Of a stretch of DNA of 47,839 nucleotides, positions 1,577-22,584 are shown piece by piece; the stretch's first letter is position 1; each line of letters begins with the position of its first letter. Location: positions 1 through 47,839 of the forward strand of contig CAMDGQ010000030.1 in assembly GCA_945897955.1 (NCBI GenBank). The letters are read 5' to 3'. A model generated the notes under the pieces. The model did no database searches. It saw only the letters and a list, made by a program, of their open reading frames with translations, and had not been told where the DNA came from. The position numbers and the translations under genes were made by a program. This DNA comes from Tepidiphilus sp. J10 (lineage in GTDB: Bacteria > Pseudomonadota > Gammaproteobacteria > Burkholderiales > Thiobacillaceae).

Positions 1577-2932
1577 TCAGGCGGTTTCCTTGATCTCATA
1601 CCGCTTCAACTTCCGCCACAACGAAACCCGGTCGATGCCCAACATCGACGCGGCCAGGGTCTGGTTACCGTGGGCTTCTTCCAGCACCCAGAGGATGTAG
1701 TCGCGTTCCTGTTCTTCCAGCGGGATGACGCGGCCGTCGCGGCGGCGGAAGGCGCGGATGCTGAGGTCGCGCAGGTCGTCGGGCAGGTGGGCGGCTTCGA
1801 GGGTGTCACCCTGGCAGATGGCGACGCCGCGTTCGACGATGTTTTCAAGTTCGCGCACGTTGCCGGGGAAGTCGTAGGCCTTGAGCAGGCCGAGGGCTTC
1901 TTCCGAGATCCTGCGTACCGGCTTGCCCATCACCGGCGCGGCGCGGTCGAGGAAATGTTGCGCCAGCAGCGGGATGTCTTCGCGCCGTTGCGACAACGGC
2001 GGGATGTGCAGGTTGACGACGTTGAGGCGGAAGTAGAGATCCTGCCGGAAGCGGCCTTCCGCGACCCAGTCCTTCATGTTGCGGTTGCTGGCGGCGATGA
2101 AGCGCACGTCCACTTTCAGCGGGCGGGTGCCGCCCACCGGCAGCACTTCCTTTTCCTGGATCACGCGCAGCAGTTTGACCTGCATGGCAAGCGACATTTC
2201 GGTGACTTCGTCGAGGAACAACGTGCCGCCATGCGCCGCGACGAGCAGGCCGGTCTTGCCGATCGCGCCGGTGAAGGCGCCTTTTTCGTGGCCGAACAGT
2301 TCGTTGGCGAGCAGTTCCTCGTTGAACGCGCCGCAGTTGACGGCGAGAAACGGTCCATCGGCACGGCCGCCGTTGTCGTGCAGACAACGCGCGAACAATT
2401 CCTTGCCGGTACCCGATTCGCCGGTGATCAGCACGTTGCAGCCGGTGGGCGCGACCTGGCGCGCCATGTCGAGCAGCTTCTGCATGCCGCCGTCGCGGGT
2501 GATGACGCGAGTGCGGCCCTCGAAGGCGTCGAGCTGGGCGCGCAGGGCGCGGTTTTCCCGCTTAAGACGGACTTTTTCCAGCGCTTCGGCCACTGTCTGG
2601 CGTACTTCATCGAGACGAAACGGTTTGGCGATGTAATGGAAGGCGCCCTCCTTCATCGCCGCGACGGCCGATTCCAGCGTGGCAAAGCCGGTAATCATGA
2701 TGACCTCGGTATCTGGATGTTGCGATTTGCAGCGACGCAGCAAATGCATGCCATCGACCTTGTCCATTTTCATGTCGGTCAGCACCAGATCGAACGGCTG
2801 CGCGTCGAGCAGTTCCAGCGCATGGCTGCCGCTTTGCGTCGGGGTGATGGCATAGCCCTCCCTGGCGAGGACATGTTCCAGGTTGCGCAGGGCGATGCGC
2901 TCGTCATCGACGAGGAGAAGGCGGGCGGTCAT
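1577..2932 (-). CDS. Sigma-54-dependent response regulator (NtrC family), module A
   Basis: A 451-residue regulator with three parts. The receiver domain (about 1-120) has phospho-acceptor Asp53 in LVLTDMKM. The AAA+ domain (about 140-370) has Walker A GESGTGKE and the sigma-54 contact loop GAFTGA. The C-terminal Fis-type helix-turn-helix ends in GIDRVSLWRKLKRYE. The start at 2932 is chosen because MTARLLLVDDE is the receiver's natural beginning; the reading frame is open further upstream but the extension is low-complexity. It lies 28 bp downstream of its partner kinase gene. It is clearly paralogous to the regulator at 21205-22584. A sigma-54-type promoter at 4514-4530 drives the divergent SulP/DAB operon and is the obvious target, although this is inference. 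Confidence 0.93.
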   Translation of the reverse strand: MTARLLLVDDERIALRNLEHVLAREGYAITPTQSGSHALELLDAQPFDLVLTDMKMDKVDGMHLLRRCKSQHPDTEVIMITGFATLESAVAAMKEGAFHYIAKPFRLDEVRQTVAEALEKVRLKRENRALRAQLDAFEGRTRVITRDGGMQKLLDMARQVAPTGCNVLITGESGTGKELFARCLHDNGGRADGPFLAVNCGAFNEELLANELFGHEKGAFTGAIGKTGLLVAAHGGTLFLDEVTEMSLAMQVKLLRVIQEKEVLPVGGTRPLKVDVRFIAASNRNMKDWVAEGRFRQDLYFRLNVVNLHIPPLSQRREDIPLLAQHFLDRAAPVMGKPVRRISEEALGLLKAYDFPGNVRELENIVERGVAICQGDTLEAAHLPDDLRDLSIRAFRRRDGRVIPLEEQERDYILWVLEEAHGNQTLAASMLGIDRVSLWRKLKRYEIKETA

Positions 2933-2960
2933 GGGGAACTCAACATTCAAAATTGTTAAT

Positions 2961-4415
2961 TCAACATTCCGTCGGTCCCGCCGGCAGCCGGACACGGAAT
3001 TCCGCACCGCCTTCCGGACGGTTGGCAACGCTGATGCAACCGCCATGTTCTTCGATGATTTCGAAGGCGATGAACAGGCCGAGGCCGCTGCCGTGGCCGA
3101 TGGCCTTGGTGGTGAAGAAGGGGTCGAACACGCGCGGCAGCAACTCGGGCGGGATGCCGGGGCCGCTGTCGGCGATGGCAAGCTCGATTGCCGCCATGCC
3201 GGGGCGGCATTGGCCGGCTTGAACGACGTGGCCTTCGCTGGTTCCAGCCACGCCGGCGCGGGCGGAGATGGCCAGTTCGCCGCCTATGTCGCCCTGCTCG
3301 GCCATGGCATCCCAGGCGTTGACGACGAGATTGAGCAGGACTTGTTGCAGACGCGGACGGTCGCCCAGCACCGTCAGTTCGGGCGCGATGTCGAGGCGGA
3401 TTTCGACGCCGGGCGGACGTTTCGATTTGAGGAAGCGCAGGGTTTCCTCCACCAGTTCGGCCAGAGCGATCGGCGCCGGCTTGAATTCGCGGTCGCCTGC
3501 GTAATCCAGCAGAGCGCGCACGATGCGGCGCGCGCGCAGGGTTTCGGCGTCGATGTCTTCGATCAGTTGGCGGTGAAATGCCGGCTCGATGTCGGGGTCT
3601 TCGCGCAGGATCTGCGCCGACGAGGAAATATTGGATAGCGGGTTGTTCAATTCATGCGCCACGCCGGAAAGCAGGGTGCCGAGCGAGGCCAGTTTTTCCG
3701 CGCGGACAAGAGTGTGCTGGCGGCGTTCCAGTTCATCCAGGACGTGATTGAACGCGGCGGCGAGCGAGATGAACTCACGCTCGCGGCTGTCCAGCGCCAG
3801 GCGCGCGAGATGGCCGCTGGCCACCGCCTGCATGCGCGTTTCCATGTCCCGCAACGGGCGCGTGACCTGGCGGGCAAGCAGCACGCCGGTCAGCACCAGC
3901 AGGCTCGCCACCAGCGCCAGCCAGAACAGCAGGTTGCGTTGATGCGCGGCAAGGGCGCTGTTGAGCGACTGGCGTTCCAGCGCCGCGAGGCGTTCGCCCA
4001 TGGTGACCACGCGATTGCCGAGCGCACGCGCGGCATCGGCAACGCCTTCATCCTCGGGGGATTGCGCATGCGCGGCCATCGCCACGGTATAGCGCACCAG
4101 ATCGTTCTCCAGCCCGGCAGCCGAACCGGCTCCGGCGAGGCTGTCGATGTCGGCGGCATCGCGGCGCAACAGCTCGCGCGTGCGCGCAGCGAAGCGGGCG
4201 TGATCGACCAGATCGCCTGCCTGACCATAGAGGAAATGGTTCTTCTCGAAGCGGCGCATCTCCAGCGTGGCATCGGCCAGTTCGGACACTTTGCTGCCTT
4301 CGCGCGCCTTGTCAGAGATGCGATCGAGTTCGATCAATGCCACCGCCGACAGGCCGACGATCAGCGCGGCGAGCGCGAGATAGACGAAAACAATTTTGGC
4401 TTGCAGCGATCGCAT
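2961..4415 (-). CDS. Membrane sensor histidine kinase, module A
   Basis: A 484-residue kinase. TM1 is at about 6-30. A periplasmic helical region follows with the signature EMRRFEKNHFLY at about 52-63, resembling helical-bundle (HBM/4HB-like) sensor domains. TM2 is at about 162-181 and a HAMP linker at 182-235. The HisKA domain has phospho-acceptor His254 in GVAHELNNPLSN. The C-terminal ATPase has the N box LNLVVNAWDA and G boxes ADSGPGIPPEL and GHGSGLGLF. The start is ATG 4415 (MRSLQAKIVF); an upstream in-frame start at 4457 would add 14 unlikely residues. It pairs with the sigma-54 regulator immediately downstream and is paralogous to the kinase at 19727. The ligand is unknown. Confidence 0.92.
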   Translation of the reverse strand: MRSLQAKIVFVYLALAALIVGLSAVALIELDRISDKAREGSKVSELADATLEMRRFEKNHFLYGQAGDLVDHARFAARTRELLRRDAADIDSLAGAGSAAGLENDLVRYTVAMAAHAQSPEDEGVADAARALGNRVVTMGERLAALERQSLNSALAAHQRNLLFWLALVASLLVLTGVLLARQVTRPLRDMETRMQAVASGHLARLALDSREREFISLAAAFNHVLDELERRQHTLVRAEKLASLGTLLSGVAHELNNPLSNISSSAQILREDPDIEPAFHRQLIEDIDAETLRARRIVRALLDYAGDREFKPAPIALAELVEETLRFLKSKRPPGVEIRLDIAPELTVLGDRPRLQQVLLNLVVNAWDAMAEQGDIGGELAISARAGVAGTSEGHVVQAGQCRPGMAAIELAIADSGPGIPPELLPRVFDPFFTTKAIGHGSGLGLFIAFEIIEEHGGCISVANRPEGGAEFRVRLPAGPTEC

Positions 4416-4424
4416 GGCGCGAAG

Positions 4425-4445
4425 TGTAACAACGATGTTGCAACA
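4425..4445. promoter_or_regulatory. Candidate enhancer site for the module A regulator
   Basis: The stretch contains a perfect 10-bp palindrome TGTTGCAACA (4436-4445) next to a GTAACAAC half-like element, just upstream of the kinase start. Related GTTGTAA and TGTTAC sequences recur at about 4468-4500. It lies roughly 95-115 bp upstream of the start predicted from the sigma-54 promoter at 4514-4530, the usual distance for an enhancer-binding protein. Assignment to the adjacent regulator is inference. Confidence 0.4.
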
Positions 4446-4513
4446 TGCAACTATCAAAATTTCATGCTGTTGTAATGGTCCTTTAATTTCAATGTGTTAC
4501 CAGAACAAGTGGA

Positions 4514-4530
4514 CTGGCACGCTTGATGCT
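4514..4530 (+). promoter_or_regulatory. Sigma-54 (-24/-12) promoter for the SulP/DAB operon
   Basis: CTGGCACGCTTGATGCT matches the consensus YTGGCACG-N4-TTGCW, with GG and GC exactly 12 bases apart; the -12 box is ATGCT rather than TTGCT. Transcription would start near 4540, about 24 bases before the first small gene. The gene for a sigma-54-dependent regulator lies divergently beside it. Confidence 0.7.
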
Positions 4531-4563
4531 TTAAGCAACACGACCTCATCACCCGCCATCGCC

Positions 4564-4740
4564 ATGTACCGCACACCGCAGCAGACCTATCTCGCCGAAC
4601 GCATGAACTCCGCCGCCGGGCTCGGCTGGCAGATGGACCAGACCGAATCGACCTGGTTCGGCCTGTTCCGCTTCCTGTTCGTTGGCTGGTCGCGCATTGC
4701 CGGTCTGTTCCTGCCGCGTCGTCTGCACGCTACCCGCTGA
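4564..4740 (+). CDS. Small 58-residue protein heading the SulP/DAB operon
   Basis: I do not recognise this protein. The peptide starts MYRTPQQTYLAERMNSAAGL and has a hydrophobic, aromatic-rich C-terminal half (TWFGLFRFLFVGWSRIAGLF) ending in basic residues. That composition suggests a membrane-associated amphipathic or single-helix peptide. It is the first reading frame after the sigma-54 promoter and ends 7 bp before the next gene. There is no good ribosome-binding site before the ATG, and the predicted leader is only about 24 bases. A possible role as a small accessory subunit of the transporter is speculative. Confidence 0.45.
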   Translation: MYRTPQQTYLAERMNSAAGLGWQMDQTESTWFGLFRFLFVGWSRIAGLFLPRRLHATR

Positions 4741-4747
4741 TCTCGCC

Positions 4748-5122
4748 GTGAAACGTCGCGTCGTCGTTGCCTTGCGCCCGGTTTCGCCGGTAGCGCGCCT
4801 GTTGCAGGTGGGCGCCGGGCTGAGTCGCCGGATGGAGGCTGAACTTGAAGTTCTGGCCGATCCGACGCGGCCGGACTGGGCCGACATCGAGGCACGACTG
4901 GCCGGGCTGGAAGGCGAAGGCGTGTCCTGCCGTCTGACGCCGGCGCCCGGACTCGATGCGCGCCAGGTTGTCGAACATGCCAGACGGCACGAATGCGTCG
5001 CCTCCGTAGTGGTCGGCCGTCCCGCCGCCTGGGCCGGTGAAGGCCATGTCGACCCCTGGAGCAAGCTGGAATGTCCGCTCGTCGCGGCCTCCGATCACCC
5101 CGATTTACCTGAAGAAAAGTAG
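4748..5122 (+). CDS. Degenerate universal-stress-like protein
   Basis: A 124-residue alpha/beta protein beginning at GTG 4748. It opens KRRVVVALRPVSPVARLL, then GLSRRMEAELEVL, and later ASVVVGRPAAW and CPLVAAS, the strand-helix order of a USP (adenine nucleotide alpha-hydrolase-like) fold. The ATP-binding signature G-x2-G-x9-G-S/T is not present, so nucleotide binding is doubtful. It sits between the 58-residue gene and SulP (6 bp before the SulP start). A second degenerate USP-like gene heads the sigma-54 operon of module B, so such proteins appear to travel with these transporters, perhaps as regulatory partners. Family assignment is moderate. Confidence 0.65.
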   Translation: MKRRVVVALRPVSPVARLLQVGAGLSRRMEAELEVLADPTRPDWADIEARLAGLEGEGVSCRLTPAPGLDARQVVEHARRHECVASVVVGRPAAWAGEGHVDPWSKLECPLVAASDHPDLPEEK

Positions 5123-5128
5123 TCAGCC

Positions 5129-7252
5129 ATGCAAAAAATCGCTCGTTTCCTCCCCTTCCTGCGCTGGTTCCCGATGCAGGGGGACGCCATCCGCACCGAC
5201 TTCATGGCCGGCCTCACCGTCGCGCTGGTGTTGATTCCGCAGTCGATGGCGTATGCGCAACTTGCCGGTCTGCCGGCCTACTACGGTTTGTACGCGGCAT
5301 TTCTGCCGGTGGCGGTGGCAGCGCTGTGGGGTTCATCCAATCAGTTGGGTACCGGCCCGGTGGCAGTGGTTTCCCTGCTGACCGCCTCCAGCCTGGCGAC
5401 GCTGGCCGCGCCCGGTTCCGAGGCATTCGTCGCGCTGGCGATCATGCTGTCGCTGCTGGTCGGCATCATTCAGTTGACGCTTGGCGTGTTCAAGCTGGGC
5501 GTCATCGTCAATTTCCTGTCGCATCCGGTCATCGTCGGCTTCACCAACGCGGCGGCGATCATCATCGCGCTGTCGCAGGTATCCAAGCTGTTCGGCGTGC
5601 CGATGGGACGCAGCGAACATTTCATGCATGACATCGTCGGCGTGTTCAAGCAGATCGGCGATACGCATCTGCCAACGCTGGCGATGGGCGTAACGGCCAT
5701 CGCGATCATGTGGGGCATCAAGAAATACAAACCGAAACTGCCCGGCGTGCTGATTGCGGTAGCGCTGACCACTGTGGTGTCCTATGGCATCGGCTTCGAG
5801 AAGAAGGCGACTCTGCCGATCGACGAAGTGTCCGATCCGCAGATCGTTTCGATGCTGATCGAGTACGAGGCCGCCGAGAAGGAACTCGTCTCGGTCAAGG
5901 AAAATGCGCTCGCCAATGAATCCGAAGCGAAGAAGCTGGAACAGCAGAGCCCGCGCAACGAACAATTCATCCTGGCCCTGCGCTACCAGTCCGATCTGTT
6001 GAACGCGCAATCCCGCGTGCTCGAAGCCAGCAATGGCAAGCGCCTGAAGGAACTGCGCAAATTCCGCTTCCAGCGTGAAGTTCTGGCGGACGGCAAAGCC
6101 GGCGGCCTGCACCGCGAGGGCGCCATTCCGGCCAGCCTGAAAACCGACGGCGAGGCCTGGCAGATCACCAAGGTCGCCAAGGGCGAAATCAGGCTGGCCG
6201 GCGGCGGCGAAGTCGTCGGCAGCATCCCGGAAGGCCTGCCCAGCATCGCCATGCCGACGCTGGACATGAGCAACCTGGCCACGCTGTTGTCCGCCGCACT
6301 GGTGATTTCCCTGGTCGGCTTCATGGAAGCCATCTCCATCGCCAAGGCCATCGCCGCCAAAACCAAGCAGCGTCTGGACCCGAATCAGGAATTGATCGGC
6401 CAGGGCCTGTCCAACATCGTCGGCTCGATGACGCAGGCGTTCCCGGTTTCCGGCTCGTTCTCGCGCTCGGCGGTTAACATGAACTCGGGCGCCAAGACCG
6501 GCATGAGCTCGGTCTACACCGCCATCCTGGTGCTGATCACGCTGCTGTTCCTGACGCCGCTGCTGTACCACCTGCCGCAGGCCGTGCTGGCCGCAATCAT
6601 CATCATGGCGGTCATCGGGCTGGTCAACGTCGAGGCAGTGAAGCACGCCTGGCACGCCAACAAGCATGACGGCGCGGCTTCCATCGTCACATTCTTCGCC
6701 ACCATGGCCTTCGCGCCGCATCTGGACAATGGCATCATCGTCGGCGCCGGCCTGGCGCTGATCCTGTTCCTGATGCGCACGATGAAACCGCGCGTGGCGC
6801 AACTCGGCCGCTTCACCGACGGCACCCTGCGCGACATCAAGGTCAACCCCGGCATTCCGACCAGCGAACATGTGGTGGCCATGCGGTTCGACGGGCAACT
6901 CTATTTCGCCAACGTGTCCTACTTCGAGGACACCATCCTGTCGGTGCTGTCCGATCATCCCAAGGCCAAATTCTTTCTGGTGGTCGGCGACGGCATCAAC
7001 CAGCTCGACGCCTCCGGCGAGGAAGTCATTCACCACCTGGTCACCCGACTTAAGGACGCCGGCGTCACGCTGGTCTTCTCCGGCCTGAAGAAGCAGGTGC
7101 TCGACGTGATGCGCGCCACCGGCCTGTTCGACCTGATCACCCAGGCCAACATCTTCGCGACCGAAGATCGGGCCATCGCCGCAATCTATGAACGTCTCGG
7201 CGATGACGCGAAAGACGATCTGTTCTGTGCGGTGAAACCGGCCGCAGCCTGA
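5129..7252 (+). CDS. SulP family permease with STAS domain and coiled-coil insertion
   Basis: A 707-residue inner-membrane anion transporter. The SulP core starts with GLTVALVLIPQSMAYAQLAG (residues 28-47) and includes GFTNAAAIIIALSQ and, late in the core, GSFSRSAVNMNSGAKTG. A C-terminal STAS domain occupies about 570-700. An insertion at about residues 225-360 is unusual: a charged, probably coiled-coil segment rich in Glu, Lys, Leu and Ala, ending in GGGEVVGSIPEGLPS where the conserved core resumes. The SulP at 36986 has the same insertion. Placement ahead of a DAB cluster points to bicarbonate; sulfate cannot be excluded. It is co-directional with the USP-like gene 6 bp upstream. Confidence 0.93.
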   Translation: MQKIARFLPFLRWFPMQGDAIRTDFMAGLTVALVLIPQSMAYAQLAGLPAYYGLYAAFLPVAVAALWGSSNQLGTGPVAVVSLLTASSLATLAAPGSEAFVALAIMLSLLVGIIQLTLGVFKLGVIVNFLSHPVIVGFTNAAAIIIALSQVSKLFGVPMGRSEHFMHDIVGVFKQIGDTHLPTLAMGVTAIAIMWGIKKYKPKLPGVLIAVALTTVVSYGIGFEKKATLPIDEVSDPQIVSMLIEYEAAEKELVSVKENALANESEAKKLEQQSPRNEQFILALRYQSDLLNAQSRVLEASNGKRLKELRKFRFQREVLADGKAGGLHREGAIPASLKTDGEAWQITKVAKGEIRLAGGGEVVGSIPEGLPSIAMPTLDMSNLATLLSAALVISLVGFMEAISIAKAIAAKTKQRLDPNQELIGQGLSNIVGSMTQAFPVSGSFSRSAVNMNSGAKTGMSSVYTAILVLITLLFLTPLLYHLPQAVLAAIIIMAVIGLVNVEAVKHAWHANKHDGAASIVTFFATMAFAPHLDNGIIVGAGLALILFLMRTMKPRVAQLGRFTDGTLRDIKVNPGIPTSEHVVAMRFDGQLYFANVSYFEDTILSVLSDHPKAKFFLVVGDGINQLDASGEEVIHHLVTRLKDAGVTLVFSGLKKQVLDVMRATGLFDLITQANIFATEDRAIAAIYERLGDDAKDDLFCAVKPAAA

Positions 7253-7318: not shown

Positions 7319-8785
7319 GTGCTGCGCCTTCTCCTCCTCCTTCCCCTGTTCGGCGCCCTGCTGATCGCGCTGCTGCCCGGCCGCAACGGTGTCCTGATTC
7401 GTCGCGCCGCTCTCGCGATCACCGCCATCACGCTGGGCTGGGCGCTTTGGCTGGCATCGGCGTTCGACCCCTCGGTCGCGAGCGTGCAACTGGTCGAAAG
7501 CCATGTCTGGAACCCGCGCATGGGCAGCGCATTCACGCTCGGCGTCGATGGCATCTCGCTGCCCCTGGTCTGGCTGGCGACCCTGCTGGCGTTCATCGCC
7601 GCGCTTGCATCCGGCGGCATCAAGGACAAGCCGAAGGGCTACTACATGCTGTTGCTGCTGCTGGAAGCGGCCATGCTCGGCGTGTTCATGGCGCGCGACT
7701 GGTCGCTGTTCTATGTGTTCTGGGAACTCACGCTGCTGCCGCTGTTCTTCCTGATCGACCGCTACGGCGGCAAGAACCGCAGCCGCGCCGCGCTCAATTT
7801 CGTGCTCTACACCATGGGCGGCTCGGTATTCATGCTGATCGCGCTGCTCATGCTGTATGACGCCGCGCCCGGACATTCCTTCGACATGGCCCAGATCCGC
7901 GCGGGCGCCCACCAGTTGCCGGAAGCCACGCAAATCGGCCTGTTTCTCGGTCTGCTGATCGGCTTCGGCGTCAAGATGCCGATCTTCCCGATGCATGGCT
8001 GGCTGCCGCTGGCGCACGTCGAAGCGCCCAGTCCGGTATCCATTCTGCTGTCCGGCATCCTGCTCAAAATGGGCTCCTATGGCCTGATCCGCGCAATCGA
8101 CACCCTGCCGGCGGCGGCGGTCGCGTTGCAGGGCCTGTTGCTGGCGCTGGCCCTGATCAGCCTGGTCTATGGCGGCATCCTGGCCTGGAAGCAAAGCGAC
8201 CTGAAAGCGATGGTGGCGTATTCCTCGGTTTCCCACATGGGCATCGTGCTGCTCGGACTCGCCGCACTGAACAACGCCGGCTTCACCGGCGCGGTCATGC
8301 AGATGGTGGCGCACGGTCTCGTCGCGGGCGCCCTGTTCCTGCTCATCGGCCTGCTCTACGAACGCACCCATACCCGCGAACTGGCCGACTACGCCTCGCT
8401 GGTCAAGGTCATGCCGCGCTTCGCCTTCTTCACCATCCTGGCCTTCATTGCCGCCGTGGGCATGCCGGGCACGGCCGGCTTCGTCGCCGAACTGCATGCG
8501 CTGATCGGCGGTTTCGCGCGTTGGGGAGCGTGGGTCGTGCCGGTCTCGCTCACCGTGATCATCAGCGCCGCCTATTCCGTGCGCGTCATCGGCCGCCTGT
8601 TTACCGGCCCCATCGCATCCCCGCAATCGGATCGCATGCGGCATCTGCCCGACCTCACCCGGGGCGAATTCACCGCCGCCGCCGTGTTGACCGCCGGCAC
8701 CCTGATCATCGGCTTCTACCCCGCGCCCATGCTTGACCTGATCGCCGCCACCGTCGGCCTGTATGCGGAGGTGTTCGCATCATGA
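7319..8785 (+). CDS. NuoM/MrpD-like proton-conducting membrane subunit, first of the DAB cluster
   Basis: A 488-residue polytopic protein of the complex I antiporter-like family. The residues of the proton path are intact: Glu136 in VFWELTLLP, Lys219 in GVKMPIFPMHGWLP, Lys250 in GILLKMGSYGLIR, His332 in VAHGLVAGALF, and Glu391 in GTAGFVAEL. It would conduct protons (or sodium) across the inner membrane. The start is GTG 7319 with no strong ribosome-binding site. The stop overlaps the dabA start by 4 bp (ATGA), so it is translationally coupled to DabA. It probably energises DabA together with the three similar subunits downstream. It is not part of a respiratory complex I operon: no other Nuo genes are nearby. 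Confidence 0.88.
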   Translation: MLRLLLLLPLFGALLIALLPGRNGVLIRRAALAITAITLGWALWLASAFDPSVASVQLVESHVWNPRMGSAFTLGVDGISLPLVWLATLLAFIAALASGGIKDKPKGYYMLLLLLEAAMLGVFMARDWSLFYVFWELTLLPLFFLIDRYGGKNRSRAALNFVLYTMGGSVFMLIALLMLYDAAPGHSFDMAQIRAGAHQLPEATQIGLFLGLLIGFGVKMPIFPMHGWLPLAHVEAPSPVSILLSGILLKMGSYGLIRAIDTLPAAAVALQGLLLALALISLVYGGILAWKQSDLKAMVAYSSVSHMGIVLLGLAALNNAGFTGAVMQMVAHGLVAGALFLLIGLLYERTHTRELADYASLVKVMPRFAFFTILAFIAAVGMPGTAGFVAELHALIGGFARWGAWVVPVSLTVIISAAYSVRVIGRLFTGPIASPQSDRMRHLPDLTRGEFTAAAVLTAGTLIIGFYPAPMLDLIAATVGLYAEVFAS

Positions 8786-13502: not shown

Positions 13503-13527
13503 AAGTACCTGCCAACACAGCCAATGC

Positions 13528-13579
13528 AGGGTGCGCCGTGCGCACCTTCCAGCGGCAAACGGTGCGCACGGCGCACCCT
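13528..13579. repeat. Inverted repeat inserted inside the DAB operon
   Basis: 19-bp perfect arms at 13528-13546 (AGGGTGCGCCGTGCGCACC) and 13561-13579, with a 14-base loop. It fills most of the 96-bp gap between two subunit genes, the only large gap in the cluster. Related GGGTGCGCCGTGCGCACC repeats are common as intergenic elements in proteobacteria. In the RNA it would form a very stable hairpin that could lower expression of the last two subunits. No T-run follows. Confidence 0.75.
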
Positions 13580-13598
13580 ACACCTGCAAACTTTTACT

Positions 13599-15104: not shown

Positions 15105-16566
15105 TTTCCTCACCCCGCTGCTGCTGATCTACCCGATAGGCGCCTTGCTGATCTGGCTGACGCCGCGCCCCGAGTCGGCGCGCATGGTCGCGCTGGCCGT
15201 CAACGGCATCGGCCTGACCCTGGCCGCGCTGGTTCTGGCCGGCTTCGATCCGAGCCAGTCCGGTTTCCAGATGGTGGCGCGCACGCCCTGGATACCCAGC
15301 CTGCACATCGACTATGCGGTCGGCGTGGACGGCATCTCCGTGCTGTTCCTGCCCGCTACCGCGCTGCTGTTTCTGGGCGTCAATCTGGCTTCCTGGAACA
15401 ACGTCCGCGAATTGCCGCGCCTTTATCACAGCCTGCTGCTGTTGCAGGCGGGCGCGACGCTGGGCGTGTTCTGCGCGGTGGACACCCTGCTGTTCTTCCT
15501 GTTCTGGGAACTGTCCCTGGTGCCGTTCTACTTCCTGGTCGGGCTGTGGGGCGTCGGGCCGCATCGCGGCTACGCAGCGACCAAGTACACACTGATCATG
15601 CTGGGCGGCGGCGTGCCGTTGCTGTTCGGCTTCATCGTGCTGGCATTCAATCATGCCGCCTATAGCGGCGCCGGCCTGTCATTCGATCTGGCGACCCTGC
15701 TCGGCACGCCGCTGCCGGATCATCTGGAGTGGCTCGTCTTCCTGCTGCTGTTCCTCGGTTTCGCGGTAAAGACGCCGGTGTTTCCGCTGCATACCTGGCT
15801 GCCGCTGCTGTCGATGGAAGGACCGGTGGCGGTGGTGACCCTGCTGACCAGCCTGAAGCTGGGTGCCTACGGCCTGATCCGCTTTGCCGTGCCGCTGGCG
15901 CCGGATGCCGCGCAGGAACTGCACTGGTTGCTCGCCGGCCTGGGCGCCTTCGGTCTGCTCTACGGCGCCGTCGTGGCCATGGCGCAAACCAATCTGCGCG
16001 CCATGCTGGCCTATTCCAGCCTGTCGCACGTCGGCCTGGTCCTGCTCGGCATCGCCTCGCTCAACCTGCAAGGCGTGCAGGGCGCGGTGCTGCAACTGCT
16101 CAACTTCACCCTGATTTCCGGCGGCCTGTTCCTGATCACCGCGTTCATGCAACAGCGCCTTGGTTCCACCGATGTGCTCTCGCTCGGCGGCGCGGCGCGT
16201 TCGATGCCGCTGCTGGCCAGTTTCTTCCTGTTCTTCGGTCTGGCCAGCCTGGGCATACCCGGCACCAGCGGTTTCCCGGCGGAACTGCTGATCCTGATTT
16301 CCGCCATCCAGACGCATACCGGCGCCGGCCTCGCCGCGCTGTTCGGCATGGTGGTCGGCGCCGGCTACTTCCTGAACCTCTATCGCCGCGCCTTCCTGGG
16401 TCCACTGACCAATCCGGTCGTGGCGGCGGCCAGCGACCTGCGTCCGCGAGAACTCGCCCTGCTGATCGTCTTCGCCGCGATGATCCTGATGTTCGGCCTG
16501 CACCCGACGCCGTTGCTGGATATCATCCGCCCGGCGGCGGAAGCCTGGGTGGGCCGGCTGCACTGA
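15097..16566 (+). CDS. NuoM-like proton-conducting membrane subunit, last of the DAB cluster
   Basis: A 489-residue polytopic protein. Glu138 in FLFWELSLVPFYF, Lys225 in GFAVKTPVFPLHTWLP, Lys254 in TSLKLGAYGLIR and the TM12 Glu in GTSGFPAELLIL are present, so a proton channel appears intact. The mid-membrane His motif HGL is NFT here. Compared with the first subunit (7319) it shares layout and length, suggesting duplication within the cluster. Its start overlaps the upstream gene by 8 bp, giving coupling. Its end faces the convergent USP gene 24 bp away. Confidence 0.88.
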   Translation: MTDFLTPLLLIYPIGALLIWLTPRPESARMVALAVNGIGLTLAALVLAGFDPSQSGFQMVARTPWIPSLHIDYAVGVDGISVLFLPATALLFLGVNLASWNNVRELPRLYHSLLLLQAGATLGVFCAVDTLLFFLFWELSLVPFYFLVGLWGVGPHRGYAATKYTLIMLGGGVPLLFGFIVLAFNHAAYSGAGLSFDLATLLGTPLPDHLEWLVFLLLFLGFAVKTPVFPLHTWLPLLSMEGPVAVVTLLTSLKLGAYGLIRFAVPLAPDAAQELHWLLAGLGAFGLLYGAVVAMAQTNLRAMLAYSSLSHVGLVLLGIASLNLQGVQGAVLQLLNFTLISGGLFLITAFMQQRLGSTDVLSLGGAARSMPLLASFFLFFGLASLGIPGTSGFPAELLILISAIQTHTGAGLAALFGMVVGAGYFLNLYRRAFLGPLTNPVVAAASDLRPRELALLIVFAAMILMFGLHPTPLLDIIRPAAEAWVGRLH

Positions 16567-16590: not shown

Positions 16591-17427
16591 TCAGCCGACT
16601 GCCCGCGCCACCAGCACCGGGCATTGCGCCTGCCCCATGATGCGTTCTGAAATGCTGCCGAGGAACAGGCGGGAAAGACCGGTGCGGCCGTGGCTGCCGA
16701 CCACGATCAGGTCGGCCTTTTGGCTGGCGGCGGTTTCGATCACGACTTCGTCCGGGCGGCCTTCGGCCACCAGGCCGTCACAGACCACGCCGGTGGCAAT
16801 GAGAGAGGCAACGACGTTGTCCACCGCGATCCGGGCCTCGGCCTTGCGCTCCGCGCTGTGGCTTTTGGTGGTGGCGGAAACCACGGTTACCGGCATCAGG
16901 CACTGCCTAGCCACATCGCGTGCTGCCTCGGCGGCGGCGGCGCTGTGGTTGGAGCCGTCCGTGGCCAGCACGATGCGCTGACTCCAGACCTGCCCGACGC
17001 GCGGCACCATCAATACGTTGCAGGGTGCGTGGCCGGCGACATGGGCGGTGGCGTGGCCGACCATGAATCGGGCCAGACCGCGCTTGCCACGCCGGCCGAG
17101 AACCACCAGATCGGGTTGCAGTTCCTCTGCCGTACGGACGATTTCCTGGTGCGGCTCCTCGCCATAGACCAGTTGTGTGTCGCAGGCGACCCCCGCCGCA
17201 TCAGCCGCGGTGGTAACTGCGTCGAGACGTGACTGCGCCTCGCGTTCCAACTGGGCGCGCAGTCCGTGGGTGCCGACGCCTTCCAGATCCTGGGTGGACA
17301 GGACGATGGTCATCACGGTCAGCCTGGCGCCGCAGCGTTTGGCCAGATCGATCGCCACACGCTGGGCGCCGCTGGAAAAATCCGAGCCGTCGGTCGGGAA
17401 CAGGATGTGCTTGATTGCTTTGCTCAT
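16591..17427 (-). CDS. Tandem universal stress protein (two USP domains)
   Basis: A 278-residue cytoplasmic protein made of two USP domains. Domain 1 (about 5-142) starts KHILFPTDGSDFSSGAQ. Domain 2 (about 150-276) starts RIVLATDGSNHSAAAAE. The second domain has the nucleotide-binding signature GSHGRTGLSRLFLGSIS; the first has GRRGKRGLARFMVGHAT, with the final Ser replaced by His, so ATP binding is expected mainly in domain 2. It is the last gene of the minus-strand operon headed by the sigma-54 promoter at 19541-19556, 10 bp after the TauE/SafE gene. Probable role: stress or energy-state signalling, perhaps acting on the transporter. The product of the shared operon is not known. Confidence 0.9.
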   Translation of the reverse strand: MSKAIKHILFPTDGSDFSSGAQRVAIDLAKRCGARLTVMTIVLSTQDLEGVGTHGLRAQLEREAQSRLDAVTTAADAAGVACDTQLVYGEEPHQEIVRTAEELQPDLVVLGRRGKRGLARFMVGHATAHVAGHAPCNVLMVPRVGQVWSQRIVLATDGSNHSAAAAEAARDVARQCLMPVTVVSATTKSHSAERKAEARIAVDNVVASLIATGVVCDGLVAEGRPDEVVIETAASQKADLIVVGSHGRTGLSRLFLGSISERIMGQAQCPVLVARAVG

Positions 17428-17437: not shown

Positions 17438-18538
17438 TTATGCCTTCCGGGCGAGCGGATTGATTGCCGGATCGGCTACCCGATTGGCCAGCTTGTGCGC
17501 GGCCATGCCCTTGATCAGCGCGACGACGATGGTGATGCCGCCCACCGCCAGGGCCAGCACCAGGGTGGCGTCGCCGAGCATCTTCAGGGTGTTGATGGTG
17601 GATTCCTGCATGGTGGCGATCAGGCCCAGCTTGGACAGATAGCCCGGCACATAGAAGAAGCGCGAGAACAGCACGATGACCATGATGATGCCCATGACGA
17701 ACTTGACGATGGAGTCCTTTACATAGGTGGTGCCGATGGCGCCGATCTGGATGCCGAACAGCGAGCCGGCCAGGATGATCATGGCCAGGCGGATATCGAC
17801 CACGCCGTCGAGCGCGTAAAGCATGGTGCCGCCGGCGCCCATGACGAAAGCGATCACCAGTTCGGTGGCAGTGGCCATCAGCGCGGGGGCGCCCAGCACA
17901 TAGATCATCGCCGGCACACCGATGAAGCCGCCCACCGCGATGGTGGCGGCCAGCATGCCGGTGGCGAATCCCAGCGGCACGATGAACAGCACGGAGACAC
18001 GCGCCTTCAAACTGGTGAAGTACATCATGGTGCCGGGGATATTGACCGACTGGACCCACAGCGCCAGTTTCGGGGCCACATGCGGTGCTTCCTCGCCGTC
18101 GCCGTCCTTTTCCGCCTTCAACATCTTCAGCGCGTCGCGCAGCACGAAACTGCCGACGATGGCGAGCACGATGACGAACACCACCGAGACGTACAGACTG
18201 GTGCCGACGTCGCCGTAGATGTGTTTGACCTCGGTCATCGCGTGCTTGCCGACCAGCACGCCGGCCTCGGCGAAGATACCCATGATGATGCCCAGCTTGA
18301 CGTCCACCTGGCCGTACTTGTGACGCTTCATGGCACCGACCAGGGATTTGGGAAACTTGTGGCAGATATTGGAGGCCACCGCGACGATGCCGGGCACCCC
18401 CAGGGTCATCATCGCCGGAGTCAGCACGAAGGCGCCGCCGGAGCCGATGAAGCCGGAGACCATGCCGCCGATGAAGCCGACCACGAACAGGGCGATGGCG
18501 TTGTAGAGATTGATGTCGATGAACAGGCTGCTTTCCAC
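17438..18538 (-). CDS. TauE/SafE (sulfite exporter) family permease
   Basis: A 366-residue membrane protein with about eight hydrophobic helices in two halves. The first half carries GFIGGMVSGFIGSGGAFVLTP (typical TauE opening) and the second ATGMLAATIAVGGFIGVPA. A charged cytoplasmic loop at about 160-185 separates the halves. Family members export sulfite, sulfoacetate or other small anions. The protein is longer than simple TauE proteins of about 250 residues. The start is GTG 18538, with GGAG about ten bases upstream. It lies between a two-helix protein gene and a tandem USP gene in a sigma-54-type operon. In a sulfur oxidiser sulfite export is reasonable; a carbon-related anion cannot be excluded. 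Confidence 0.87.
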   Translation of the reverse strand: MESSLFIDINLYNAIALFVVGFIGGMVSGFIGSGGAFVLTPAMMTLGVPGIVAVASNICHKFPKSLVGAMKRHKYGQVDVKLGIIMGIFAEAGVLVGKHAMTEVKHIYGDVGTSLYVSVVFVIVLAIVGSFVLRDALKMLKAEKDGDGEEAPHVAPKLALWVQSVNIPGTMMYFTSLKARVSVLFIVPLGFATGMLAATIAVGGFIGVPAMIYVLGAPALMATATELVIAFVMGAGGTMLYALDGVVDIRLAMIILAGSLFGIQIGAIGTTYVKDSIVKFVMGIIMVIVLFSRFFYVPGYLSKLGLIATMQESTINTLKMLGDATLVLALAVGGITIVVALIKGMAAHKLANRVADPAINPLARKA

Positions 18539-18556
18539 TTTTCGATGCTCCGTAAC

Positions 18557-18808
18557 TTACTTTTTGCTGGTTGATGTTTTTGCGGCGCGCAGGCCGAGGG
18601 TTTCCCAGAAGTAGCCGGTAAAGGCGCCATGGAAATACGAGAACACGAAGGCGACGACGATCGGGATCAGGAACAGGCTCTTTTCACCTTTGATGGTGCG
18701 TTCCGCCCAGTCGACGAACAGGTCGGAATTCATCAACAGCAAGGTGTACAGCACGAGGCTGGCAATACCGAACAGCAGGGTGGCCGCGATGGGCTTTTTA
18801 GGGGACAT
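18557..18808 (-). CDS. Small two-helix membrane protein in the TauE operon
   Basis: An 83-residue protein with two predicted transmembrane helices (ATLLFGIASLVLYTLLLMN and FLIPIVVAFVFSYFHGAFTGY) and a lysine-rich C-terminal tail. GAGGA lies six bases before the ATG. It is 18 bp upstream of the TauE/SafE gene in the same direction, which suggests a small partner subunit. I cannot name the family. A different two-helix gene also precedes the SulP at 36986. Confidence 0.75.
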   Translation of the reverse strand: MSPKKPIAATLLFGIASLVLYTLLLMNSDLFVDWAERTIKGEKSLFLIPIVVAFVFSYFHGAFTGYFWETLGLRAAKTSTSKK

Positions 18809-18867: not shown

Positions 18868-19458
18868 TCAGGTCAGGGAAAGGGGGGCAGCCGCCTTGCG
18901 GGCGGATTCGCGCATCGACGATTTCGCGCCCTGCGGTCGTTTCTGTGATGGTTCGCCAACCACCACGACCGGGACCGGCGTGGCGCTGTCGAACAATCCT
19001 CGCCGGCCGCGCATCAGCGCGCGCACCGGGTCGTCCGCCGTGCCTGAAACCGCGAACAGCACGCTGGAACGGTTCTGCAGCACGCGCAATACCGCGCGCC
19101 GGCTGGCTGCGCCCAATGCTTCGGTCTCGCAGGCAATGCCTTCGAGCGCGGGCAGGTATTCGACCAGCAAAGCGCGCAACCCCATTGGATCGTGGGTGAG
19201 CAGCAAGAGATCGGCCTGCATGCGACGGCACACGCCGATGACGTAATCCATGACGGGCGCCGGCAAGGTTGCACCGACCCCCAGTGCAATCAATTTGCGC
19301 GGGCTGTTTGTCAATGGCGCTGCGGCGGCGGGAGCGGGAGATGACAAAGGTGAGGGGTTCAACGCTGCCTCCATGCGGTAACGGCCGCTGACCTCGCCGG
19401 CATCGGCCTGAGCCAGCGCGCTCAAGGCCTGTTTGATCTGATCGGCAAGTCGTTTCAT
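18868..19458 (-). CDS. USP-like protein heading the module B operon
   Basis: A 196-residue protein. After a helical, Ala/Pro-rich lead (1-60) comes an alpha/beta domain: KLIALGVGATLPAPVMDYV, ADLLLLTHDP, SVLFAVSGTADDP and VPVVVVGEP, the strand order of a USP-like fold. No clear ATP signature is seen. The start at 19458 (MKRLADQ) has GGAGTTCCCT directly upstream; the frame stays open further but without such support. It is the first gene after the sigma-54 promoter at 19541-19556. Like the gene at 4748 it is a degenerate USP relative linked to a transporter. Confidence 0.65.
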   Translation of the reverse strand: MKRLADQIKQALSALAQADAGEVSGRYRMEAALNPSPLSSPAPAAAAPLTNSPRKLIALGVGATLPAPVMDYVIGVCRRMQADLLLLTHDPMGLRALLVEYLPALEGIACETEALGAASRRAVLRVLQNRSSVLFAVSGTADDPVRALMRGRRGLFDSATPVPVVVVGEPSQKRPQGAKSSMRESARKAAAPLSLT

Positions 19459-19540
19459 AGGGAACTCCGGTTTGGATGGATGCCCCATGCGTTGCGCTGA
19501 ACTGAAGCGCTCGTTCGCGTGTCGGGGCTGGCTTGCTATC

Positions 19541-19556
19541 GCAAGCACTGTGCCAA
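19541..19556 (-). promoter_or_regulatory. Sigma-54 (-24/-12) promoter for the TauE/USP operon
   Basis: Read on the minus strand the site is TTGGCACAGTGCTTGC, an exact match to TTGGCAC-N5-TTGC with the correct 12-base GG-GC spacing. Transcription would begin near 19529, about 70 bases before the start codon at 19458. The divergent gene pair encodes a sensor kinase and a sigma-54-dependent regulator. Confidence 0.8.
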
Positions 19557-19619
19557 ACCCCGAAATCCGCTAACCCATTGATTTTATTGGGCGACGACAT
19601 GTGAACCACAACGTCAGCC

Positions 19620-19722
19620 GTTTCAATAACGAAACACCCTAACCACTAATCAACCTAATGCCTTGATTGGCAAGGACTTGCCGAAGACGTTTAGAATCTG
19701 AAACGTGTTTCACTATTGAAAT
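19620..19722. promoter_or_regulatory. Palindromic candidate enhancer sites for module B
   Basis: GTTTCAATAACGAAAC at 19620-19635 is a palindrome with arms GTTTC/GAAAC. GTTTCACTATTGAAAT at 19707-19722 reads on the other strand as TTTCAATAGTGAAA, sharing TTTCAATA..GAAA with the first. GAAACGTGTTTC at 19700-19711 overlaps it. The first lies about 90-105 bp upstream of the predicted sigma-54 start, the usual enhancer distance. The second touches the kinase start codon, which suggests autoregulation. Confidence 0.5.
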
Positions 19723-19726
19723 AGAG

Positions 19727-21208
19727 ATGTCCAGCATTCGCGGCAAGATCACTTTGGGTTATCTGGCACTCGCGCTTGGCGTCGGCGGCTTTGTGCTGTT
19801 TGCATCCGCCGATCTGCGATTTCTGGAAACCCGCGTGCGCGAAGGCGTGGCGATATCGGCGTTCCAGGAAACCGTGCAGGAAATGCGCCGCCACGAGAAA
19901 AATTACTTCCTTTATCGCGGCGCCGATGAACTGGACGAGGCGCGTGTGCAAGCCGGACGGCTGGCGCAACAGCTCGATGCGGAGGCCCAGGCGCTGGCCA
20001 GCATCGCGCGCAATGATGAAATTCCCGCTCTGGGCCGGGCGATCGAGCGCTACCGGAAGTTGATCGAGCAACCCATCGAGTTCGTCGCCGGCAATGCCGA
20101 GGCCAATCATGTTGAGGCCGACATACGCGCGGCGGGACATGCCATTTCCGAGTTCAGCGAGCATCTGGCGCTGCGCGAGCGCACCGCGCTGGTGGCCACC
20201 CTGCGTCAGTCGCGCCATGCCTTGTTCTGGTCGGTCGGCCTGGTGGCGCTGCTGGCGCTGGCCGGCGGGCAACTGCTCTATCGCGCGGTGGGCAGGCCCC
20301 TGCGCCGCCTCGAAGAACAGCTTGAACCGCTGGCGGAAGGCCGCTTCCAGACCTTCTCGATGGTGTCAGAGGATCGTGAAATCGTTTCTTTTACGGCGGC
20401 GCTGAATCGCATGCTGAAAGAACTTGAACTTGGCCGTCGCCAGGTTCTTCAATCCGACAAGCTCGCCGCGCTGGGCACTCTGGCTTCCGGCGTCGCCCAC
20501 GAGTTGAACAATCCGTTGGGCAACATTTCCGGCGCCTGCCAGATCCTGCTGGAAGAACTCGACGGCCTTGACACCTTGCCCGCCGACGCACGCGCGGCCC
20601 TGCGCGACTGGCTGACCCAGATCGACGACGAAACCGAGCGGGCGCGGCGCATCGTGCGCACGCTGCTCGACTACAGCCGCAAACCGGTACGTGCAGGGGC
20701 GGCCTGTCTGCTTGGCGAAGCCCTGGAAAAATCCTTGCTGCTGCTGCGCCAGCGTCTGCCAAACGAGAACAGCGTCAGTTTCGAACTGCCTGCCGACTTG
20801 CTCGTCTGCGCCGATCCGCAGCGTTTGCAACAGGTCTTCATCAACCTGATCCAGAACGCGCTTGATGCCGGGGGCGACTCGGTGCAGGTGAACATCCATG
20901 CCCGCCAGGCCGAAGCGGCGAGCTGGCCGCCTGCCGGCGCCGGTTTGGTCGTGGGCGCACGGGCGGAACGCGAAGCGGTGCTGGTCACGGTCGCCGACGA
21001 TGGTCCCGGCATTCCCGGCGAGCGCCTGGGCCACATCTTCGACCCCTTCTTCACCACGCGCGAACCCGGCGAAGGCACCGGCCTGGGCCTCTATATCGTC
21101 GGTGAAATCGTCCAGGAACTGGGCGGCGCCATTGCAGTTTCCAGTCCCGGCCCCTCCGGCCGGGGCGTGTGCTTCAGTCTGTGGCTGCCGTGCGGAGCCG
21201 CAGCATGA
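19727..21208 (+). CDS. Membrane sensor histidine kinase, module B
   Basis: A 493-residue kinase paralogous to the one at 2961. TM1 is at about 8-27. A periplasmic helical domain has EMRRHEKNYFLYRGADEL at about 52-69, the same signature as in module A. TM2 is at about 166-185 and a HAMP-like linker to about 235. HisKA has phospho-acceptor His258 in GVAHELNNPLGN. The ATPase has the N box LIQNALDAGGD and G boxes ADDGPGIPGER and GEGTGLGLY. The start is ATG 19727 (MSSIRGKITL). The stop overlaps the regulator start by ATGA, so the two are translationally coupled. The shared sensor signature suggests that both modules detect related signals. Confidence 0.92.
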   Translation: MSSIRGKITLGYLALALGVGGFVLFASADLRFLETRVREGVAISAFQETVQEMRRHEKNYFLYRGADELDEARVQAGRLAQQLDAEAQALASIARNDEIPALGRAIERYRKLIEQPIEFVAGNAEANHVEADIRAAGHAISEFSEHLALRERTALVATLRQSRHALFWSVGLVALLALAGGQLLYRAVGRPLRRLEEQLEPLAEGRFQTFSMVSEDREIVSFTAALNRMLKELELGRRQVLQSDKLAALGTLASGVAHELNNPLGNISGACQILLEELDGLDTLPADARAALRDWLTQIDDETERARRIVRTLLDYSRKPVRAGAACLLGEALEKSLLLLRQRLPNENSVSFELPADLLVCADPQRLQQVFINLIQNALDAGGDSVQVNIHARQAEAASWPPAGAGLVVGARAEREAVLVTVADDGPGIPGERLGHIFDPFFTTREPGEGTGLGLYIVGEIVQELGGAIAVSSPGPSGRGVCFSLWLPCGAAA

Positions 21209-22584
21209 ATACCGCCCCCGCCCGGATTCTTGTGGTCGATGACGAGGCCGCCGCGCTGAAGAACCTCACGCATCTGCTGCGCAAGGAGCATTACGAAGTG
21301 ACGGCCTGCCAGAGCGGATCTGCCGGCCTGGCGGCGCTGCAACAGCAGGAATTCGCGCTGCTGCTGACCGATCTGCGCATGAAGGGCATTGATGGCATGG
21401 CGTTGCTGCGCAGGACAAAAGTCCTGCAACCGGACTGCGAGGTGATCGTCATTACCGGCCACGCCACGCTCGATTCCGCTGTTGAAGCAATGAAGGAAGG
21501 CGCGTTTCACTATATTGCCAAGCCCTATCGGCTTGATGAAGTACGTCAGGTGGTCAAAAGCGCACTCGATGTTGTGCTGTTGAAACGGGAAAACCGAGTC
21601 CTCAAGCAACGCATCGAAGAGTACGAGAGCGGCCCGAATATCGTCACCCAGGATGCCGCAATGCTGTTGTTGCTGGACACGGCGCGGCAGATCGGGCCGA
21701 CCGACTGCAACGTATTGGTGACCGGCGAATCGGGAACCGGCAAGGAACTGCTGGCGCGCTATGTTCACACCCATAGCGGGCGTTCAAAAGGCCGGTTTGT
21801 CGCAGTGAACTGCGGCGCGCTGCAGGAGGAACTGCTCGCCAACGAGTTGTTCGGCCACGAAAAGGGCGCGTTCACCGGCGCCGACCGACAAAAGCGCGGC
21901 CTGATCGAAATCGCCGAGGGCGGCACGCTGTTCCTCGACGAAATCACCGAAATGTCCCCTGCCATGCAGGTCAAGCTGTTGCGGGTACTGCAGGAACGTG
22001 AATTGCTGCGTGTCGGCGGTACCGAACCGGTTGCGATCGATGTGCGCTTCATCGCGGCAACCAACCGCGACCTGCAGGAGAGCGTCCGCAACGGCCAATT
22101 CCGCGCCGACCTTTTTTTCCGGCTCAACGTCGTCAACCTCGCCCTGCCGGCACTGCGCGAGCGGCGCGATGACGTGCCCCTGCTGGCGTTCTACTTTCTG
22201 AAGAAATTCGCCCTGGCGATGGGCAAACCGGTTGCCGATATCGAGCCGGACGCGCTGCGCTTGCTGGGTCGATACGACTATCCCGGCAACGTGCGCGAAC
22301 TCGCCAACCTGATCGAGCGTGGCGTCGCCCTGGCGCGCGGAGTGCTGCTGGATCTCTCGCATCTGCCGGAGAGCCTGCGCAGCCTCAAGGTGCGCGTGGC
22401 ATCGGCGGCTGGCAATGAGCTGCAAAGCCTGGAAAAGAACGAGGCGACGTACATTGCCCAGGTGCTTGCCTTTACCGGCGGCAACCGCAACCAGGCCGCA
22501 GATATCCTCGGTATCGACCGGGTTTCGTTGTGGCGAAGGATCAAGCGCTATGGACTTGATGTTGATGATAATGCCCGGCATTGA
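21205..22584 (+). CDS. Sigma-54-dependent response regulator (NtrC family), module B
   Basis: A 459-residue regulator: receiver with Asp56 in LLLTDLRMKG, AAA+ domain with Walker A GESGTGKE and the GAFTGA loop, and a Fis-type helix-turn-helix ending GIDRVSLWRRIKRYG. The module A regulator ends in the closely similar GIDRVSLWRKLKRYE, so their recognition helices are nearly the same even though the candidate upstream sites differ. The start is ATG 21205, overlapping the kinase stop. The likely target is the divergent operon with the TTGGCAC-N5-TTGC promoter at 19541-19556. Confidence 0.93.
   Translation: MNTAPARILVVDDEAAALKNLTHLLRKEHYEVTACQSGSAGLAALQQQEFALLLTDLRMKGIDGMALLRRTKVLQPDCEVIVITGHATLDSAVEAMKEGAFHYIAKPYRLDEVRQVVKSALDVVLLKRENRVLKQRIEEYESGPNIVTQDAAMLLLLDTARQIGPTDCNVLVTGESGTGKELLARYVHTHSGRSKGRFVAVNCGALQEELLANELFGHEKGAFTGADRQKRGLIEIAEGGTLFLDEITEMSPAMQVKLLRVLQERELLRVGGTEPVAIDVRFIAATNRDLQESVRNGQFRADLFFRLNVVNLALPALRERRDDVPLLAFYFLKKFALAMGKPVADIEPDALRLLGRYDYPGNVRELANLIERGVALARGVLLDLSHLPESLRSLKVRVASAAGNELQSLEKNEATYIAQVLAFTGGNRNQAADILGIDRVSLWRRIKRYGLDVDDNARH

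Follow-up and report, generated by a model that had tools for sequence, protein, structure and literature searches.

Paralogous sensor kinase/NtrC-type regulator pairs diverge from SulP-DAB and TauE transporter operons near carboxysome genes in Tepidiphilus sp. J10

The DNA analyzed here is a 47,839-nucleotide stretch of Tepidiphilus sp. J10 (GenBank assembly GCA_945897955.1, contig CAMDGQ010000030.1, positions 1 to 47,839 of the forward strand), which we call the window. It encodes two related pairs of a sensor kinase and an NtrC-type response regulator, pair A and pair B, each of which diverges from a transporter operon. The operon beside pair A encodes a SulP-family anion transporter and a DAB-type CO2-hydration complex, and the operon beside pair B encodes a TauE/SafE (TSUP) transporter and a universal stress protein (USP). 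The features are as follows (ORF, open reading frame; HTH, helix-turn-helix), with the basis of the assignment at the end of the line where one applies.

1577..2932, minus strand: RR-A, NtrC-type response regulator with GAFTGA, HTH_8 and recognition helix RVSLWRK (Pfam, tree)
2961..4415, minus strand: HK-A, sensor kinase with periplasmic helical domain, HAMP, HisKA and HATPase_c (Pfam, sensor profile)
4436..4452, plus strand: predicted operator A, TGTTGCA-ACA-TGCAACt (palindrome search)
4515..4530, plus strand: predicted -24/-12 sigma-54-type promoter of the SulP-DAB operon, TGGCACGCTTGATGCT, one mismatch
4564..4740, plus strand: 58-amino-acid ORF, probably gene 1 of operon A, no Pfam match
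4748..5122, plus strand: orfA, conserved leader protein, weak kin of uspB (hhalign probability 91.8)
5129..7252, plus strand: SulP-family anion transporter with STAS domain, E400 within the segment aligned to plant sulfate transporter 4.1
7319..8785, plus strand: antiporter-like (NuoM-type) subunit, candidate DabB partner
8782..11970, plus strand: DabA, with putative Zn-ligand motifs FCMDD (529) and GHSSHSQNNPHASAYMCGAC (725) (PF10070, inspection)
11967..16566, plus strand: three more antiporter-like subunits, with ends at 13502, 15104 and 16566; the start of the first is approximate
16591..17427, minus strand: tandem USP (USP2) (Pfam)
17438..18538, minus strand: TauE/SafE (TSUP) transporter (Pfam)
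18557..18808, minus strand: small ORF kept beside TauE in four relatives, identity 66 to 70%
18868..19458, minus strand: uspB, conserved first gene of operon B, no Pfam match
19540..19555, minus strand: predicted -24/-12 sigma-54-type promoter of the TauE operon, TGGCACAGTGCTTGCG, one mismatch
19620..19635, minus strand: predicted operator B2, GTTTC-N6-GAAAC (palindrome search)
19707..19722, minus strand: predicted operator B1, aTTTC-N6-GAAAC (palindrome search)
19727..21208, plus strand: HK-B, sensor kinase (Pfam, structure model)
21205..22584, plus strand: RR-B, NtrC-type response regulator with RVSLWRR (Pfam)

A first-pass annotation, made from the letters alone, had placed both pairs at these positions, and Pfam confirms them. 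RR-A and RR-B each contain receiver, Sigma54_activat and HTH_8 domains, which with GAFTGA in the sigma-54 AAA+ domain and a Fis-type HTH make both of them NtrC-type regulators, and the genome encodes rpoN (sigma-54). HK-A and HK-B each contain HAMP, HisKA and HATPase_c domains, with the HAMP domain of HK-B scoring under its cut-off. As the annotation had reported, both kinases carry E-M-R-R-x-E-K-N-x-F-L-Y and GIDRVSLWR is identical in the two regulators; no RVSLWR was found at 11 other NtrC-type regulator loci inspected in the same genome. The divergence of each pair from an operon with its own -24/-12 site (4515-4530 on the plus strand and 19555-19540 on the minus strand), the convergence of the operons at about 16.58 kb, and the identities of DabA, SulP, TauE and the tandem USP also stand. 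What had been described as TauE/SafE plus USPs is correct for USP2 (16591-17427), the only product that matches the USP family in Pfam, and fails for uspB, which like orfA has zero Pfam matches at E values up to 0.1. These two operon first genes are weakly related to one another (hhalign 91.8%, E of 7e-7) and may encode a conserved transporter-linked regulator. A uspB-like start is visible in locus L164.

RR-A and RR-B are 60% identical, and the next regulator of the same genome is 43% identical to RR-B. In a regulator tree with the 11 other NtrC regulators of the genome as the outgroup, 33 module regulators are monophyletic (100/99) and fall into clade A (14 rows), clade B (14 rows) and a third group (5 rows). 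A quick kinase tree, which has no outgroup, gives the same three groups. Judged by identity and tree, the two pairs are sister paralogs, as the first-pass annotation had supposed. Clades A and B each hold other genera of the family, and clade A also holds one genome of another family. Because each clade contains other genera, the duplication predates the genus. The mirror-image layout that had been described, with the pairs pointing outward, is found only in the window; in four relatives with nearby pairs (L032, L040, L044 and L036/L037), the regulator ends face each other. A recent tandem duplication is ruled out by these differences in relative orientation and by the presence of other genera in both clades. 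By inspection, both pairs occur together in 8 of 61 genomes (G000, G001, G006, G010, G011, G013, G015 and G019).

Both regulators score far under the NCBIfam equivalog cut-offs for GlrR/QseF, AtoC and ZraR (for RR-A, 427 of 714 for AtoC and 377 of 763 for GlrR). We regard the kinase/regulator set as a previously undescribed family within a familiar class of regulators, and its target set as being of a new type. We delimited the family with a sensor-region profile (A3) and took kinases above 120 bits, which gave 136 kinases, or 129 after removal of near-copies. Among 300 genomes of the order, 21 have matches of at least 217 bits, and the next match has 47 bits; these 21 carriers are spread over 7 families, and the genomes are not independent. 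A sample of the class (369 genomes) yielded 14 further carriers, and a sample of the phylum (398 genomes) yielded 30 carriers outside the class, some of them weak, and two more that are the own genome and G024. Relatives above 120 bits include Betaproteobacteria, Nitrospirae, Thiomargarita, Parabeggiatoa, Thiodictyon, Magnetococcales, Rhodocyclus tenuis, Desulfobacterales and Desulfocapsa.

The neighborhood is conserved along with the kinase, as the cross-genome search suggested by the first-pass annotation bears out. An adjoining regulator is present at 121 of the 129 family kinases, and the divergent transporter is SulP at 59 and TauE at 31 of these nonredundant loci (90/129 together), with 7 loci stopping at a contig edge. 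SulP, TauE, DabA and antiporter-like genes were found at none of the 11 other NtrC regulators of the genome within the stretches fetched, which were short for two of them (L298 and L306). A quick tree covered regulators from 87 of the 90 loci that have a partner. On it, the SulP/TauE label changes 14 times, with no fewer than 11 of the changes by starred branches. Within 8 kb of the module, DabA occurs at 15/129 loci and a hexapeptide protein, which we label gamma-carbonic anhydrase (CA)-like, at 13/129; USP2-type genes lie near 34/129. In L201 and L035, TauE is followed by a gamma-CA-like gene with an antiporter-like pair; in L196 and L203, SulP is followed by such a pair. The antiporter-like pair of L201 is part of a Hyf-like set.

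A Hyf/complex-I-like operon adjoins the same switch in L152 (414-8966) and partly in L201. We dropped a CupA-like identity for the genes between the NuoL- and NuoM-like genes, which in L152 and L201 are NuoH-like and HyfE-like (the latter under its cut-off). The DPCxxC motif is absent from the 49-kDa-like subunit of L152. The L152 set may be a hydrogenase-related complex without a nickel site, possibly tied to carbon or anion uptake.

For promoters, kinases under 120 bits and those with less than 250 bp upstream or an incomplete start were set aside, and the resulting 132 divergent regions were reduced to 125 by removal of near-copies. A -24/-12 site directed toward the operon is present with at most one mismatch in 63 of the 125 regions and with at most two in 93, compared with 0.9 and 8.6, respectively, in shuffles. 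In the opposite reading direction, 8/125 have a site with at most two mismatches. The window as a whole shows no excess of sigma-54 sites: 28 full-consensus sites with at most two mismatches were found versus 30.2 expected, and 7 core sites versus 4.0 expected, with 10 of 100 shuffles as high. The sigma-54-like sites in the window are convincing only because of their position and their conservation among relatives.

Operators were searched in the 92 of 125 regions that have a site with at most two mismatches and a region of at least 60 bp. Upstream of the promoter, exact TTGC-N5-GCAA is found in 41 of these regions and GTTG-N7-CAAC in 36, with 0.2 expected in each case. The predicted family operator is the palindrome TGTTGCA-N3-TGCAACA, which is present at 4436-4452. 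Within the genus, the second copy uses GTTTC-N6-GAAAC. The genus A regions have TTGC-N5-GCAA with at most one mismatch in 15/15 (6 exact) and TTTC-N6-GAAA in 0/15, while the genus B regions have TTTC-N6-GAAA twice in 10/10 and the A box in 0/10 in the stretch upstream of the promoter, even if one mismatch is allowed. Shuffles of these regions give 0.6 of 15 for the A box and 0.05 of 10 for the B box. A near-identical recognition helix could be taken to imply a shared site; for the genus we reject this, subject to the caveat that in a looser 310-bp stretch an A-type match with one mismatch turns up in 4 of 9 genus-B regions. SLWRR, a Lys-to-Arg change beside the helix, is found in 9/9 genus-B regulators examined and in 1/111 others. 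Because the A and B operators differ in the genus, the twin switches are probably insulated from each other, although the 4/9 looser matches speak against this and leave some room for cross-binding.

DabA matches PF10070 with 758 bits and adjoins an antiporter-like subunit, the gene arrangement of DAB/DAC complexes. By inspection its putative Zn-ligand motifs are present. Here DabA is accompanied by four antiporter-like subunits rather than one (7319-16566), a gene order that is repeated in L041. The SulP protein has Sulfate_transp and STAS domains (Pfam), and the membrane site aligned with the plant sulfate transporter is Glu in 55 of 56 lettered rows, with 3 gaps; we presume a role in H+ coupling for this residue. 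Megablast of SulP against plasmids gave zero matches. TauE matches PF01925 with 122.6 bits (cut-off, 32.6), and a sequence search gave no credible solved relatives of it.

The AlphaFold2 model of the sensor domain is a confident helical bundle (mean predicted local distance difference test score, 92.9). In the alignment of 136 kinases, R54 is conserved in 135/135, R55 in 133/135, E57 in 135/135, N59 in 133/135, Y109 in 135/136, R134 in 130/136 and G137 in 136/136. Going by helix order, the near-invariant residues would be expected at the same level along the bundle, where they would form an anion-friendly site, and a ligand is suggested because the Arg/Arg/Asn/Tyr/Arg set is near-invariant. 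The fold search matched QseE and NarQ, a nitrate sensor, but many unrelated helical bundles score alike. Against the HBM sensor domain (PF16591; gathering score, 29.8), HK-B gives a partial match of 21.2 bits and HK-A is not listed.

The range covered by the first-pass annotation (1577-22584) ends short of carboxysome genes in the same window. CsoS2 and CsoSCA are encoded at 29471-33401, with no cbbLS ahead of csoS2, and a second SulP (36926-39067) is followed by an SbtA-type bicarbonate transporter (39072-40016). The sole RuBisCO match of the genome is on another contig (C20, 404 bits) and scores like a group that we take to be form II. PMC9164163 describes csoS genes located away from cbbLS in members of the Thiobacillaceae and suggests this as a possible family trait, a report that the split csoS layout of the window fits. 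CsoS2 and CsoSCA also occur in L164/L267, apparently one contig, which with the window makes 3/131 family loci, and RuBisCO occurs in 4 family loci from about two species (L164/L267 and L150/L260). At least 7 of the 35 RuBisCO-bearing carriers (G024, G050, G187, G370, G372, G452 and G510) have RuBisCO within 35 kb of the module, for which the binomial p is about 2e-4 if the per-genome chance is 0.035, an assumed value.

Other genes lie in the surroundings. RR-B is directly followed on the same strand by a third two-component pair, of a different type (22606-25454; a PF21623 sensor and PAS kinase, and by inspection a FixJ-like regulator), and a HipA-C-like gene (26866-28248) lies between the module and the carboxysome genes. 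A divergent gene that is LysR-like by inspection precedes csoS2 (28469-29683). A hexapeptide protein, which we label gamma-CA-like as well, is encoded at 324-884.

Based on the conserved divergent layout, promoters and operators, it is very probable that each regulator turns on, by way of sigma-54, the transporter operon from which it diverges. The kinase would be controlled by a helical sensor in the periplasm, which probably reads a small anion, and the phosphorylated NtrC-type regulator would bind one or two palindromes, which in the window lie ~60 to 170 bp upstream of the -24 element, and would drive the -24/-12 promoter with sigma-54. The targets would be interchangeable anion-transport operons, either TauE with USP or SulP, the latter with the DAB CO2-hydration complex in some cases and on its own in others, and the two ancient copies with separated operators would serve a CO2-concentrating island beside the carboxysome genes.

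Inorganic carbon is favored as the substrate because carboxysome genes, a second SulP and SbtA share the window. We consider it reasonably probable that each pair is a dedicated switch of its divergent operon and that its job is to supply inorganic carbon in a sulfur-oxidizing autotroph. A number of observations weigh against this reading. The loci were collected by similarity, so that the counts are not independent, and 32/129 loci have no directly divergent SulP or TauE although the contig continues; the few of these that were scanned have a DASS/CitMHS-type transporter (L262), a chromate-type transporter (L200) or a DUF599/ABC pair (L211). The window SulP scores only 137 bits against the BicA equivalog (NCBIfam cut-off, 880), a result that concerns membership and not bicarbonate carriage. 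Among its solved relatives, a plant sulfate transporter scores best (329 bits), while 6ki1, which we take to be BicA, gives 93 bits; this is not a fair ranking because the 6ki1 chain has only 392 residues and the plant chain has 685. Carboxysome genes within ~10 kb are found in only one species besides the window. RuBisCO is present in 14/14 class carriers and missing in 29/30 carriers outside the class, many of which belong to family f255, which we take to be Magnetococcales, a group of reverse tricarboxylic acid cycle autotrophs. In addition, all 21 order carriers also have SoxB. The module is found in 21 of the 93 order genomes with both RuBisCO and SoxB, in none of the 44 with RuBisCO and no SoxB, and in none of the 47 with SoxB and no RuBisCO; the RuBisCO tally includes weaker RuBisCO-like matches, the only kind in carrier G323. 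Carbon and sulfur are not separated by this co-occurrence because every carrier in the order has both genes.

The most serious alternative is that the signal is sulfate, sulfite or a further sulfur oxyanion and that the family governs the transport of sulfur anions, with DAB brought along in part of the operons because these sulfur oxidizers are autotrophs too. The chromate family is linked to sulfate, and all of the partner families identified (SulP, TauE/TSUP, DASS/CitMHS and chromate-type) include sulfate-type members. PMC5840216 treats SulP, DASS and TSUP/CysZ as sulfate transporters. Within the order the family is confined to SoxB-positive genomes (21/140 versus 0/160 others), the nearest solved SulP is the plant protein with its aligned Glu, and relatives include Deltaproteobacteria of the sulfate-reducer type. 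Against this, the switch is accompanied by SulP-DAB operons both in this taxonomic family and in f255 genomes, gamma-CA-like genes accompany 13/129 loci, and carboxysome genes, SbtA and RuBisCO are close by. Genomes with SoxB and no RuBisCO have no copy (0/47), and SoxB exceeds its cut-off in 13/14 class carriers and in only 1/30 carriers outside the class. We rate carbon about twice as likely as sulfur, which is possible but would not be our choice. The proposal of the first-pass annotation, carbon uptake together with anion export, is upheld as to carbon for the SulP-DAB arm, which fits the carboxysome/SbtA surroundings; anion export and induction by CO2/bicarbonate are unsupported, and a role in sulfate or sulfur-oxyanion transport is a live rival. 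It is rather unlikely that the kinases instead sense envelope or ionic/pH stress, with transport as a homeostatic response. QseE sensor domains are among the best fold matches, and USP2-type genes are near 34/129 loci, but these matches score close to unrelated helical bundles, a ligand is suggested by the near-invariant Arg/Arg/Asn/Tyr/Arg set, and the partners are mostly anion transporters. Least probable of all, to the point of being negligible, is a chance neighborhood in which the pairs regulate something else and merely adjoin transporters: the 32 loci without a directly divergent SulP or TauE would fit it, but partners are swapped with position, promoters and operators kept, and the control gave 0/11.

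A bolder form of the carbon reading, which we put forward as a long shot, is that this multi-phylum sensor family links sulfur oxidation to carbon supply. It would read a periplasmic oxyanion and deploy SulP or TauE, which would be exchangeable, to import bicarbonate, possibly against sulfate, feeding DAB and carboxysomes. If so, the TauE/SafE proteins of the module would represent a type of inorganic-carbon transporter not known before, and Hyf-like complexes adjoining the same switch in relatives would also be carbon related. In any event, the system offers a defined sensor and regulator with a predicted operator and promoter, in two natural copies in one cluster, and for TauE/TSUP proteins a role as transporters of carbon or of sulfate becomes testable. 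A changed operator read by a nearly unchanged recognition helix would make a clean case of paralog insulation. Inorganic-carbon sensing in chemolithoautotrophs looks largely open, and the family gives a handle on how sulfur-cycling and autotrophic bacteria sense inorganic carbon or sulfate.

LysR-type CbbR and CcmR control bacterial CO2-concentrating genes. They resemble the window pairs in governing carbon uptake and fixation, and the window has its own LysR-like gene before csoS2; they differ in protein class and mechanism, responding to a cytosolic effector, whereas the window pairs would sense the periplasm through a kinase. The NtrC-family two-component sigma-54 activators AtoSC, GlrKR/QseEF and ZraSR share the receiver, the AAA+ domain with GAFTGA, the Fis-type HTH, a cognate HisKA kinase, and a -24/-12 promoter with upstream palindromes. 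The window pairs are set apart from these by their own clade, their own operator and an anion/inorganic-carbon transport target.

The first-pass annotation knew of no described two-component control of DAB operons of this form. We likewise found none: a term search of carbon-transport papers gave no mention of a two-component system, and among the matches listed, the open-licence PMC literature on two-component/sigma-54 control of inorganic-carbon or sulfate-type transport, on TauE in carbon transport, on Hyf/Ehr-like complexes and on sensors of this kind gave no account of this family, with PMC5744179 and PMC4641369 nearest. The former qualifies the claim. According to its excerpts, the sigma-54 activator G372_RS0112645 of Thioalkalivibrio thiocyanoxidans lies six genes upstream of a RuBisCO/carboxysome operon and is up on thiocyanate along with RuBisCO and csoS2, and sigma-54 is suggested as a possible common actor. 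By description, this layout resembles L164, although the excerpted description gives no target, sensor family or operator (PMC5744179). For Desulfovibrio vulgaris, PMC4641369 reports two-component sigma-54 enhancer-binding proteins that have a TSUP target (DVU0110 and DVUA0057), which by that description are alike in controlling a TauE/TSUP-type permease; the other targets given there are exopolysaccharide and biofilm. The Thioalkalivibrio and D. vulgaris regulators may be relatives of the family. Finally, the DAB/DAC complexes described in excerpts of PMC13144422 share with the window a DabA with an antiporter-like partner, and the window DabA differs from them in that its operon is shared with SulP and four antiporter-like subunits.

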